Shown: positions 10,869 to 39,541 of the stretch, piece by piece
How positions within the stretch are numbered: the first letter of the stretch is position 1
How the letters are laid out: each line of letters begins with the position of its first letter
Assembly (NCBI RefSeq): GCF_900087015.1
Contig: NZ_FLKP01000002.1
Coordinates: forward strand, 1,674,001 to 1,738,000
From: Christensenella timonensis
Lineage (GTDB): Bacteria; Bacillota; Clostridia; Christensenellales; Christensenellaceae
DNA: 64,000 nucleotides
Direction: 5' to 3'
Translations under genes and position numbers: made by a program
Notes under the pieces: model-generated
Databases searched by the model: none
What the model saw: the letters and a program-made list of their open reading frames with translations, nothing else
What the model was told of the DNA's origin: nothing

Positions 10869-10888
10869 CGTTACTCCAATATAAAAAT

Positions 10889-11474
10889 ATGGTGGTGACA
10901 ATAAGGGTAGACCTTGCAGTATTTGGTCCGGTAGGATTTCCCCACAGTCTGCTCCCCGTCGCCGAAAGGAGTGGTTTCCCCTTAGAGCCTGCGGTGCAGT
11001 GTTACCTGCTGCACGACCGGATTGCCTGTTCAAACCACACTATAATCCCCTTATTGCCTGAAATACAGTCTAGGAGCTTTCCTCGACAGCACAAATCCGA
11101 TTTCTAGTCTCTTTTGCCAGCATGGTTTTTTACAGTCATGGTCCCTGAACATCCGTACGCAATGTTTCAGTGATCGTCTTCCTGCTTTTCCACCATGCCA
11201 ACGCAAGACAGGCTACTCTGTACACAGCGTAGTACCGCATAACAGGTTCCACCCTGCCCAGTAATGAAAAGGTCTCACCACCCAAGCAGGTCTCCGCGAA
11301 AGCTGGGTCAACGCCCATATGCCCTTATGGATCGCCCTTCTTTCTTAACTCCCAGCACCAGCCCCCGACGGGGCGTCAGCGGCCAGCACCAGAAACTTCA
11401 TCGATGTGCCCTTTAACGGATTTTTAGGCCCGCCTTCGAAATCGGCAGTACCGACTAGAATACTGCACCACCAT
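10889..11474 (-). ncRNA. ole: OLE RNA (ornate large extremophilic RNA)
   Basis: No plausible protein fits the 617-nt gap between recA and oapA. The minus strand reads as a structured RNA of about 586 nt. Its ends pair perfectly over 9 bp: AUGGUGGUG (11474-11466) with CACCACCAU (10897-10889). Further local helices are visible, for example GCAGUA with UACUGC near the 5' end and GCCCC with GGGGC around 11363-11376. Known OLE RNAs are about 600 nt, lie directly 5' of oapA, and cluster with tlyA, argR and recN; all of that is found here. The RNA starts 12 nt after the recA stop and ends 20 nt before the oapA start, with no terminator, so it is part of a longer transcript. Confidence 0.85.
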
Positions 11475-11485
11475 AAACCAATGGT

Positions 11486-12529
11486 TTACTTTTCCTTCTT
11501 TTCTTCCTCTTCCGTAGGTTCTTCATCCGGCATATCCGCATATTCCCCCAGCTTGTATGCCTTCAATATCTCCTGTTTGATCGTTTCCGCGATTTCCGGG
11601 TTTGCAGCAAGGTACAGCCGCACATTGTCACGCCCCTGGCCGATCTGCTCCCCATTGTAAGAGAACCACGAACCGGATTTGACGATAATCCCCAGCTGCG
11701 TTGCAAGGTTTAAGATACTTGCCGTTTCACTGATCCCCTCGCCGTAATAAATCTCAAATTCAGCCGTCTTGAACGGCGGAGCTACTTTGTTCTTCACGAC
11801 CTTGATGCGGGTACGGTTACCGATCATCTGGTCTCCGACCTTGATCGTCTCGATCCGGCGCACGTCAAGACGCACAGAAGCGTAGAATTTCAGGGCTTTA
11901 CCGCCTGTCGTCGTTTCCGGGCTGCCGAACATCACGCCGATCTTCTCGCGCAGTTGGTTAATGAATACTGCGATCGTGTTGGAACGGTTGATCACGCCCG
12001 CCAGTTTGCGGAGCGCTTGCGACATCAGTCTTGCTTGCGCACCGACATGCGAATCCCCCATCAAGCCTTCGATCTCCGATTTTGGCACCAGTGCCGCAAC
12101 AGAGTCGACGACAATGATATCGATCGCGCCGCTCCTCGTGAGGGCTTCCGTGATCTCCAGCGCTTCCTCTCCCGTGCTGGGCTGGGAGACGTACAGGTTA
12201 TCGATGTCAACGCCGAGGTTCTTTGCATAGACCGGATCGAGCGCGTGCTCCGCGTCGATAAACGCCGCTGCGCCGCCCTGCTTTTGCACTTCAGCGATCA
12301 TATGCAGCGCTACCGTCGTTTTACCGGACGATTCCGGCCCATATATCTCAACGATCCTGCCGCGCGGCACACCGCCGATCCCAAGGGCGATATCAAGCTC
12401 CAGGCACCCTGTCGGAACAACGGATACGTTCATATTTTTCGCGGCATCCCCAAGCTTCATGACCGCGCCTTTCCCAAACTGTTTTTCGATTTGGGCCAGT
12501 GCCACGTCCAATGCTTTATCTTTTTCCAT
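11486..12529 (-). CDS. recA: Recombinase RecA
   Basis: 347 residues. Walker [14 protein letters not shown], loop L1/L2 region [42 protein letters not shown], and a very acidic C-terminal tail ([15 protein letters not shown]). It performs homologous strand exchange and stimulates LexA cleavage. The start MEKDKAL at 12529 has AGGA about 9 nt upstream; the ORF extension to 12559 overlaps pgsA. It follows pgsA by 26 nt, the usual pgsA-recA order, and is followed at once by the OLE RNA. No LexA-type operator was recognised here. Confidence 0.97.
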
Positions 12530-12555
12530 TCTCCAAATTCCTTTCTGTTTTCCAA

Positions 12556-13098
12556 TCAATCCTTCAGTACTTTTGCGTTTTTAACCATATATTCGATGCA
12601 TGAGTATACAGCTAATGCCGCGCTTACCCAAATCAGTATCGAACCGACCGAGACCGGCACAAACATGAACGGCCAGTCGTTTAGGAGCAACAATATGATG
12701 GCTACGAACTGTACGACCGTTTTCAGCTTGCCCGACATATCCGCTGCGATCACCACGCCCTTCGAGGCCGCCAGTGAACGTACGCCGCCGATGATCAACT
12801 CCCGCGCCTCGATGATCAGTACGGGAATCAGGCCGACCTTACCCCAGTCCATCAGCAAAAGCAATGCCGCCAACACCAGCAGCTTGTCCGCGATCGGATC
12901 CCAAAGCTTGCCAAAATTCGATACCTGGTTGTTCCTGCGCGCAAGAAACCCGTCCAGCCAGTCTGTAAAAGCCGCTGCAATGAATATTATAGCAGCATAG
13001 ATGTTCCAATCAGGTACATTGACAAAATAAAATAATACAAAAAACGGGATCAGTACCATGCGTGCCAGGGTCAATATGTTCGGTGCATTCCATTTCAT
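12556..13098 (-). CDS. pgsA: CDP-diacylglycerol-glycerol-3-phosphate 3-phosphatidyltransferase
   Basis: 180 residues with about four to five membrane helices. The CDP-alcohol phosphotransferase motif is intact: [28 protein letters not shown], that is D-x2-DG-x2-AR-x8-G-x3-D-x3-D. It makes phosphatidylglycerophosphate, the first committed step to phosphatidylglycerol. It overlaps the rimO stop by 4 nt (ATGA), so it is translationally coupled. Confidence 0.95.
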
Positions 13099-36033: not shown

Positions 36034-37236
36034 TTATTTACAGCAGATTTCATAGGTATCTTTTGCAATCGTCATTTCCTCGTCTGTTGGGATAACGAGG
36101 ATCTTGACCTTGGAATCCGCCGCGGAAATTTCCATCTCCTCGCCGCGCATACCGTCGTTCTTTGCTTTGTCGAGCTTGATGCCCATAAATTCGAGGCCCT
36201 CCACTGCATGTGCGCGGACATCCCAGTCGTTCTCTCCTACGCCGCCGGCAAAGGTCAGCACGTCAACGCCTCCCATCGCCGCCGCATAAGCGCCGATGAA
36301 TTTCTTCAAGCGGTAGTTGAATACGTCGAGCGCCAGTTTTGCGCGTTCGTTTCCTTTTTCTTCTTCTGCCCAAAGGTCGCGGAAATCACTGGAAACACCG
36401 GAAATGCCCCATACGCCGGATTCCTTATTCAGGTAATTGATCGCTTGGTCGACATCCATATTCAGTTTTCCCATCAGGTAAGGAACGATCGCAGCATCAA
36501 GGTCGCCGCTGCGCGTGCCCATCACAAGGCCTTCCAGAGGGGTAAAGCCCATGGAGGTATCGACCGATACGCCGCCGTCCACTGCCGCGACGGAAGAACC
36601 GTTCCCAAGGTGACAGGTAATGATCTTCAGATCCTTGATATCTTTGCCCAGGATTTCCGCAGCCCTCTGCGAAACATACTTGTGCGAGGTACCATGGAAA
36701 CCGTAACGCCTTACCTTGTAATCCGTATACGCGGAATAAGGGATGCCGTACAGGAATGCTTTCTTAGGCATTTTTGCATGGAACGCCGTATCAAACACGC
36801 CGACCATCGGTACGCCCGGCATCAGTTTCTGGCAGGCAGCGATGCCCATCAGGTTAGCAGGATTATGAAGCGGCGCAAGCTCGATGTTTTCCTTGAGCGC
36901 CTCGATCACTTCGTCATTGATCAGCACGGAACCGCTGAATTTTTCACCGCCGTGCACCACACGGTGTCCAACAGCCTTGATGCTGGAAAGATCGGAAACT
37001 ACGCCATGAACCGGATCTGTAAGGGCTTTGATGACTTGCTCCATCGCGTCGTTATGATCCTTCATCGGCGTTTCGATCTCAACCTTATCTTTTCCGGAAG
37101 GCTTGTGCTTGATTACAGAGTGATCGATGCCGATCCTCTCGACCAGGCCTTTCGCGATCACATCCTCCGTGTCCATATCAATCAGCTGATATTTCAGCGA
37201 GGAACTCCCGGCATTGATTACCAATACATTTGTCAT
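36034..37236 (-). CDS. ackA: Acetate kinase
   Basis: 400 residues. Motifs: [65 protein letters not shown] and [10 protein letters not shown]. It makes ATP and acetate from acetyl-phosphate, the main fermentative ATP step with Pta. The start at 37236 is the family N-terminus; the extension to 37350 overlaps pta. It is co-transcribed with pta, 19 nt upstream. Confidence 0.98.
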
Positions 37237-38251: not shown

Positions 38252-38298
38252 TTTCGATACACCTCTTGTTAATATTTATTTCAAAAATTTGGTTTCTC

Positions 38299-38307
38299 TG
38301 TTATAAT
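38299..38307 (+). promoter_or_regulatory. Extended -10 promoter of tmcAL
   Basis: TG at 38299-38300, one spacer base, then a perfect TATAAT at 38302-38307 on the plus strand, 50 nt before the tmcAL start. No good -35 is seen, as expected for an extended -10 element. Confidence 0.65.
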
Positions 38308-38318
38308 GACACTCATAT

Positions 38319-38347
38319 ATTATATATAAAAACGTTATGCTTTGCAA
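38319..38347 (-). promoter_or_regulatory. Sigma-A promoter of pta-ackA
   Basis: TTGCAA (38342-38347) and a perfect TATAAT (38319-38324) with a 17-nt spacer on the minus strand. The -35 lies just before the ribosome-binding site of the divergent tmcAL gene, so the two units physically overlap. Confidence 0.8.
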
Positions 38348-38356
38348 AGGTATTTT

Positions 38357-39541
38357 ATGAAAATAGCAGGAATAATAGCCGAATACAACCCTTTTCATGC
38401 TGGACATGCCTATCATATTTTACAAACGTCAAAATCATACGGTGCGGACGCTGTGATTTGCCTGATGAGCGGTCATTTCGTCCAACGCGGCGAAGCCGCG
38501 ATCTACGATAAATGGACGAGGGCGCAGGCCGCCGTAACAGGAGGCGCCGACCTTGTACTGGAACTGCCTTTTTTTTATGCTGCGCAAAGCGCCGAAGGGT
38601 TTGCACAAGGTGCAGTTTCAATCCTAAACGCACTGCACTGCGTTTCCCTGCTCTCATTTGGAACGGAAACGCACGACCTGGATAGCCTCCGGGATATTGC
38701 CGGTATTTTAGCGGAGGAGTCCCCCGCTTTTTCGATGGAAATAAAGGAGCGGCTTTCAGAGGGCGTGTCCTATCCGGCAGCGCGTGCCGCAGCCCTCAAG
38801 GCCTGCTTCCCCGCCATCGAGCCTGCTGTATACAGCTCACCCAACAACATCCTTGCCATCGAATATATGAAGGCGCTCGCTGGACAAAACAGTGCCATCA
38901 AGCCTGTTAATATCGTACGTTTGGGAAACCGGTATGCGGACAGTACCCTGTCCGAACAGTATTCCAGCGCCACCGCCGTCCGCCGTGAGCTGTTGTCAAA
39001 CGGGATGGAAAACCTGAACGATTCCGATATCCCCGCTGTAGTCCGGCCCCTGTATAGCGGCGACCCTCTCCCTCCCGAAGCTGTCTTTCCCTATCTTCTT
39101 TTTTGCCTGCGAAGTATGGAGATTGGGCAGATGCGGCAAATATACGAAGTGTCCGAGGGACTGGAATACAAATTGCAAAAAGCAGCCTGTCAGGCCGGGA
39201 GCTATGCTGAATTCATCGAAATGGTAAAGAGCAAACGCTATACGCAAACGCGCATCCAGCGTATCCTGCTCTATTGCCTGCTGCATCTCACCAAAGAAAA
39301 AGCACAGGAACTGAAAGCCCAGTCTCCCTACGCCCGCGTCCTGGCCGTCAAAAAAGAACGACTCGGCCTTTTGGGCGAGATAAAAGCGCACTCCTCTATC
39401 CCGGTTGTCACCAAGGCTTCCGAATTCCCGGGAACTCCACTTTTTGACCTGGATATCAAAGCAAGCGACATCTATGCTTTACTGCACAAAAAAATCGCGC
39501 CTGCGCGGCGCGATTTCACACAAAAATTCCTGGTTATTTGA
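38357..39541 (+). CDS. tmcAL: tRNA(Met) cytidine acetate ligase
   Basis: 394 residues, one of two convincing plus-strand genes. The HIGH-like nucleotidylyltransferase motif is KIAGIIAEYNPFHAGHAYHI, followed by ICLMSGHFVQRGEAAIYDKW and SPNNILAIEYMKAL. TmcAL uses ATP and free acetate to form N4-acetylcytidine at the wobble base of elongator tRNA-Met. Divergence from pta-ackA fits an acetate link. The start at 38357 has AAAGG upstream. Its last 8 nt overlap the convergent patatin gene, and its final codons also encode that gene's terminator. Confidence 0.93.
   Translation: MKIAGIIAEYNPFHAGHAYHILQTSKSYGADAVICLMSGHFVQRGEAAIYDKWTRAQAAVTGGADLVLELPFFYAAQSAEGFAQGAVSILNALHCVSLLSFGTETHDLDSLRDIAGILAEESPAFSMEIKERLSEGVSYPAARAAALKACFPAIEPAVYSSPNNILAIEYMKALAGQNSAIKPVNIVRLGNRYADSTLSEQYSSATAVRRELLSNGMENLNDSDIPAVVRPLYSGDPLPPEAVFPYLLFCLRSMEIGQMRQIYEVSEGLEYKLQKAACQAGSYAEFIEMVKSKRYTQTRIQRILLYCLLHLTKEKAQELKAQSPYARVLAVKKERLGLLGEIKAHSSIPVVTKASEFPGTPLFDLDIKASDIYALLHKKIAPARRDFTQKFLVI
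39487..39516 (-). terminator. Terminator of the patatin gene, inside the tmcAL coding region
   Basis: A 9-bp stem AAATCGCGC (39492-39500) with GCGCGATTT (39508-39516) around 7 nt, followed by a T-run on the minus strand (39487-39494). On the plus strand the same bases are tmcAL codons near its 3' end. Confidence 0.8.

Follow-up and report, generated by a model that had tools for sequence, protein, structure and literature searches.

Some divergently transcribed bacterial operons are served by promoters that face each other and overlap, and the bioA/bioBFCD and argE/argCBH regions of Escherichia coli are the textbook representatives of this kind. In each of these regions a repressor operator, recognized by BirA or ArgR respectively, extends across both promoters. 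A related class, the bidirectional promoters of Grainger and co-workers, is described in the excerpted text of PMC10268837 as common, with start sites 7-25 bp apart, most frequently 18, and -10 positions that reciprocally overlap. Here, we describe a computational analysis of the divergent gap between the acetate genes pta-ackA and the tRNA modification gene tmcAL in a 64,000-nucleotide stretch of the Christensenella timonensis genome (the window), together with the equivalent gaps of its relatives. We think it likely, from the arrangement of predicted elements and their comparison across genomes, that this gap is a compact face-to-face divergent σA promoter whose layout is old in the order and which entails some mutual interference. 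A face-to-face promoter is known in kind; on our best reading, the conserved instance at tmcAL/pta-ackA is apparently unreported in the open-licence literature, where no report of the pairing was found among the matches listed. As excerpted, PMC9045289 and PMC3271303 give no pta start site.

The two gene sets are separated by 105 bp (38252-38356), with pta on the minus strand and tmcAL on the plus strand (Table 1). The identities proposed for pta-ackA and tmcAL in an earlier sequence-only reading of this DNA are borne out by homology, through profile families and, for tmcAL, PDB matches. The plus-strand gene encodes a full-length homologue of TmcAL (PDB 5y0n-5y0t), with HIGH_NTase1 homology along its entire length. 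It aligns with PDB 5y0p at E 4.4e-79 and with the Thermotoga maritima TmcAL, 5y0r, at E 8.4e-61, and because both alignments begin at residue 1 the assigned ATG is supported. By homology, the product would carry out acetate-dependent formation of ac4C34 on tRNA(Met); the excerpted text of PMC7408541 describes TmcAL as using ATP to activate acetate, for a single position in the tRNA.

Table 1. Genes and predicted expression signals at the tmcAL/pta-ackA locus (window coordinates)
Feature	Position	Strand	Basis
tmcAL, tRNA(Met) cytidine acetate ligase, 394 aa, ATG start	38357..39541	+	PF05636 E 3.7e-130; NF010191 above cut-off
pta, phosphate acetyltransferase, 331 aa	37256..38251	-	TIGR00651 and NF004167 above cut-off; PF01515
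ackA, acetate kinase, downstream of pta, 19-bp gap	36034..37236	-	TIGR00016 above cut-off; PF00871
Predicted extended -10 of tmcAL, TGTTATAAT, TG-t-TATAAT (TG 38299-38300, TATAAT 38302-38307)	38299..38307	+	Promoter scan
Predicted weak -35 of tmcAL, TTCAAA, 16-bp spacer	38280..38285	+	Promoter scan; variable in genus
Predicted -10 of pta-ackA, TATAAT	38319..38324	-	Promoter scan
Predicted -35 of pta-ackA, TTGCAA, 17-bp spacer (alternative TTTGCA, 18 bp)	38342..38347	-	Promoter scan
Shine-Dalgarno of tmcAL, AAAGG	38346..38350	+	Read directly
Shine-Dalgarno of pta, AAGAGGTG	38260..38267	-	Read directly
11 bp separating the two -10 boxes, containing both predicted starts	38308..38318	.	Inferred from -10 positions

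Each strand of the gap carries a TATAAT-like -10 together with an extended TG or a -35 spaced 16-18 bp away, and each predicted promoter scores 10/12. The full spans are TTCAAA-16-TGtTATAAT at 38280-38307 (+) and TTGCAA-17-TATAAT at 38347-38319 (-), so that the pta-ackA promoter proposed earlier, and the tmcAL extended -10 proposed to lie within 50 bp of it, are both present; their -10 boxes in fact face each other inside 23 bp, with 11 bp between them. The usual 7-nt rule below the -10 places the predicted starts at 38314 for tmcAL (+) and 38312 for pta (-), 2 bp apart. With facing -10 boxes, overlapping predicted footprints and divergent genes, the gap has the composition of a face-to-face promoter. 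RNA polymerase protects roughly -55 to +20, and the footprints of the two predicted promoters would overlap almost wholly. The extended -10 promoter would drive tmcAL rightwards and the -35/-10 promoter pta-ackA leftwards; each would lie inside the polymerase footprint of the other, and each transcript would cross the core elements of the other. Only one polymerase could then be accommodated at a time, and initiations would be partitioned between pta-ackA and tmcAL; how strongly the two interfere would depend on promoter occupancy. The mutual blocking of polymerases suggested by the sequence-only reading is consistent with this interlocked geometry. Its placement of the pta -35 just before the tmcAL ribosome-binding site is slightly off, since the -35 and the Shine-Dalgarno AAAGG (38346-38350) have two bases in common.

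The gap resembles the bio and arg regions of E. coli in that two promoters occupy one short gap, their -10 boxes face each other and each transcript would cross the other promoter, but the operator that spans both promoters in those systems has no counterpart found in the window gap. It shares with the bidirectional promoters of Grainger and co-workers the close divergent starts and the capacity, as predicted, for polymerase to bind either way; however, with predicted starts 2 bp apart and separate -10 boxes it falls outside the 7-25 bp definition as given in the excerpted source, which several relatives would satisfy by prediction. The facing layout exceeds chance expectation. Shuffled sequence predicts 0.01 occurrences of TATAAT-N6-16-ATTATA in the window, which has one; genome-wide the pattern is found at 8 sites against 3 for a reversed control pattern, and so is rare in the genome, not unique.

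Conservation within the genus bears on whether both promoters are real. In a six-way alignment of congeneric species, all six columns of each -10 hexamer are invariant, and 29 of the 35 columns of the interval 38290-38324 are invariant, as compared with 16/131 fourfold sites in pta and 6/64 in tmcAL (Fisher 2e-17, columns treated as independent). Pairwise identity to the window at fourfold sites is 0.41-0.58 for pta and 0.27-0.39 for tmcAL. The pta leader flank (38252-38289) is partly conserved too, at 21/38 invariant columns; the minus-strand spacer (38325-38341) retains 5/17 and the segment holding the pta -35 and tmcAL Shine-Dalgarno (38342-38351) 8/10, while the weak -35 of tmcAL, TTCAAA, varies. 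A pattern of the block, allowing at most 3 mismatches, occurs once each in 5/6 genus genomes. The genome it misses, G005, has 10 bp between the -10 boxes, one base fewer, and TTTTCA as its -35. That only one of the promoters is genuine, the other -10 being a by-product of TATAAT symmetry or A+T richness, seems to us very unlikely. Symmetric -10 boxes do commonly give divergent starts according to the excerpts of PMC10268837, and in some of the order's overlapping pairs, discussed below, a -10 with bases in common could be such a shadow. In the window, however, the two hexamers are distinct, with 11 bp between them, and neither changes across the six species; one has a -35 and the other a TG, and a promoter is presumably required by each of the flanking genes.

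The same alignment could be read as an operator for a regulator controlling both genes, as genus-wide conservation extends to columns beyond the -10 boxes (TTTCTC, CACT). The interval between the -10 boxes is invariant at 8/11 columns within the genus, but its sequence differs outside it, and the genome contains TTTCTCTGYTATAAT exactly at this locus only (18 sites with at most 2 mismatches against 11 for a reversed control). CcpA-regulated pta-ackA operons carry the cre consensus TGNAANCGNTNNCA in the control region, and an exact search of the 76 pta/tmcAL and ackA/tmcAL gaps, duplicates included, returned no match, which leaves room for weaker or more distant sites. Genus-only conservation between the -10 boxes, the lack of a second exact TTTCTCTGYTATAAT site and the lack of an exact cre in the gaps scanned led us to reject a shared operator as the main reading, and we regard an operator for a regulator of both genes at the block as highly improbable. 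Two further candidates were rejected: the palindrome CTTTGCAAAG (38340-38349), considered as an operator, is absent wherever the motif reads TTTGAAAA, and a Rex-like site near 38266, judged by eye, is not kept in relatives.

The pairing extends far beyond the genus. tmcAL is present in 55 of 61 genomes of the order (the window's genome included) and stands head-to-head with pta in 40 and with ackA in 13 in which no pta was found, for a total of 53/55; in the two exceptions tmcAL and ackA are on different contigs (G020) or about 1 kb apart (G047). Genera g3 and g4 of the same family (G007, G008, G010, G011 and G013-G017), some of whose genomes are incomplete, keep ackA opposite tmcAL, and pta was not found in them. 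To compare promoters, the top-scoring predicted promoter of either strand was taken in every gap, using approximate consensus frequencies and arbitrary cut-offs, and D was defined as the plus-strand start minus the minus-strand start. Pairs in which both promoters scored at least 7 were scorable; |D| ≤25 was called overlapping and D ≥50 back-to-back. The order set comprised one analyst-chosen representative per genus, 39 gaps in all (34 pta, 5 ackA). L055, L058 and L149 were left out of the promoter scoring since they have no assigned start codon.

Predicted promoters overlap in 31 of the 37 scorable pairs from these 39 representatives, against 2.6/39 in shuffles, and at a cut-off of 8 in 24/28, against 0.9. 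All five representatives with ackA in place of pta are among the overlapping ones. The six remaining pairs comprise three that are back-to-back (D ≥50) and three at D -140, -35 and +44. Separate -10 boxes (D -23 to 12) account for 21 of these 31 pairs and abutting boxes (D 13) for one; in the remaining nine, for example TATAATTATA, some bases belong to both -10 boxes (D 15-23). It is these nine that a single-promoter reading could treat as shadows. Choice of representative matters somewhat: L021 (D +54, from the genus of L011) and L089 (D -46, from the genus of L146) are at odds with the members chosen, and swapping both in gives 29/37 overlapping. L052 and L063 (D +81) also disagree, the rumen group being represented by L050.

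Sixty-two other divergent gaps of 80-350 bp, drawn from 60 order stretches of 20 kb and the window with genes from a simple and crude ORF caller and pairs not reduced by genus, served as controls; 29 were scorable, with 5 overlapping, 21 back-to-back and 3 between. The pta/tmcAL set compared with them, 38 representatives of which 4 lie outside the order, overlaps in 27/35 scorable pairs (Fisher 3e-6, and 3e-6 to 3e-4 over cut-offs 6-9; these values are too small and should be taken as indicative because the genomes share ancestry and the controls are not genus-reduced). When only gaps of at most 160 bp are considered, 24/26 pta/tmcAL pairs overlap as opposed to 2/7 controls (Fisher 0.0016). 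The 62-pair set supersedes two smaller ones, of 30 pairs including the target and of 13 pairs with 2/8 scorable overlapping.

Outside the order the neighbourhood also occurs, mostly with a different predicted promoter arrangement. The samples were 40 named loci and 30 class loci, the latter the best 30 of 98 genomes and hence biased and not reduced by genus. tmcAL is head-to-head with pta in 9 and with ackA in 12 of the named loci, and the nearest detected divergent neighbour is pta in 12 and ackA in 7 of the class loci. Taken with the order, this 19/30 of the biased class sample supports a wide association of tmcAL with acetate genes, and the locus documents one between acetate kinase genes and an acetate-dependent tRNA modification enzyme. 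At L033 and L035, pta is head-to-head with tmcAL and followed by rpmF, with ackA not detected in the DNA examined. The tmcAL matches of G071, G099 and G144, all of one genus, contain one in-frame TAA each, which could mean that the match overruns the genuine stop codon or that the gene is truly interrupted. Three of the 19 class pairs have no scored gap (L174 and L190 gave none and L178 lies beyond 500 bp); with near-duplicates among the named loci dropped, 29 gaps were scored. In the 21 scorable ones, 7 pairs overlap and 14 are back-to-back (Fisher 1.7e-4 for overlap in the order versus outside). The median gap is 218 bp outside versus 122 bp in the order, and among gaps of at most 160 bp overlap occurs in 27/29 pairs in the order versus 3/5 outside (Fisher 0.09), so gap length explains part of the difference. 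At L046 and L051 the two genes share one strand, with ackA about 82 and 77 bp downstream of tmcAL and rpmF further on. With such separate predicted promoters and co-directional loci, the pairing does not need exclusive transcription.

This last point weighs on the proposal that overlap was selected as a regulatory device, such that strong pta-ackA transcription would lower tmcAL and vice versa, thereby tuning tRNA acetylation. The persistence of overlap across the order with drifting spacing, even where ackA replaces an absent pta, would fit such a device, as would the use of acetate and ATP by TmcAL in the excerpts of PMC7408541. The 14/21 back-to-back pairs and the two one-strand loci speak against it; an exact cre scan and an Rfam scan of the gap, which returned no family at gathering score, found no acetate-responsive element; and competition would count only at high occupancy. 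We hold it to be unlikely. For these same reasons, namely the outside layouts and the absence of an Rfam family or exact cre, the earlier proposal of a balance between acetate flux and tRNA acetylation, set by mutually exclusive transcription, finds no support. Compared with the flux through fermentation, a single tRNA wobble base calls for a negligible amount of acetate, and since TmcAL spends acetate on one tRNA position, the flux idea fails on scale. According to the excerpts of PMC5171806, pta-ackA of Clostridium phytofermentans has an operator of the regulator Cphy2742. An order-wide selected switch, in which polymerase choice at the shared site would set the ratio of acetate-forming enzyme to tRNA acetylase with no regulator and with a -35 embedded in a ribosome-binding site, is a shade more doubtful still. 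If true, such a regulator-free switch would tie decoding fidelity to overflow metabolism.

The simplest role for a face-to-face promoter at this locus would be to express two housekeeping functions of an acetate-forming anaerobe constitutively and compactly. It is also quite possible, if short of an even call, that the overlap was fixed once in the ancestor of the order and passively inherited, each promoter being kept for itself, with negligible interference and no role. This account is compatible with the one we favour, the sole difference being how large the interference would be. The short in-order gap and the bases common to the -35 and Shine-Dalgarno argue for it. So does the frequent retention of yceD, rpmF and plsX behind ackA (at L060 the closest divergent gene detected is yceD), since something other than acetate may then account for the age of the neighbourhood. 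On the other hand, D ranges from -23 to +23 while overlap is maintained, which is more re-tuning than strict inheritance needs. Strong conservation of a self-interfering layout would be unexpected if interference were harmful. The dozens of natural variants of this one gene pair (facing, shared -10, back-to-back and co-directional) make it possible to test by comparison whether promoter overlap is costly or useful.

The face-to-face layout appears to be locked in, given the short gap and the bases that serve both the pta -35 and the tmcAL ribosome-binding site. The motif TTTG[AC]AAA just upstream of tmcAL contains both the minus-strand -35 and the beginning of the Shine-Dalgarno. It was found in 10/52 representatives, 8 of which have an ATTATA in range at 15-16 bp, corresponding to a -35 spacing of 16-18. 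The longer form TTTG[AC]AAAG lies within 35 bases of the start in 5/52 tmcAL genes as compared with 5/859 other genes. At L010 and L026 the -35-like TTTGAAAA remains 15 bp from the pta -10, the box ending 77 and 70 nt before the assigned tmcAL start, and a separate Shine-Dalgarno, AGGAGG or AAAGGAGG, is present. Thus the -35-like box, once apart from its ribosome-binding role, stays with pta.

Elsewhere in the window, the only Rfam match at gathering score is a full-length OLE RNA (RF01071, 437 bits, model positions 1-616 of 616) at 10876-11487 on the minus strand. It lies directly downstream of 11486-12559, which from its sequence we take to be recA; next after the RNA, around 10317, comes a small ORF that looks membrane-like.
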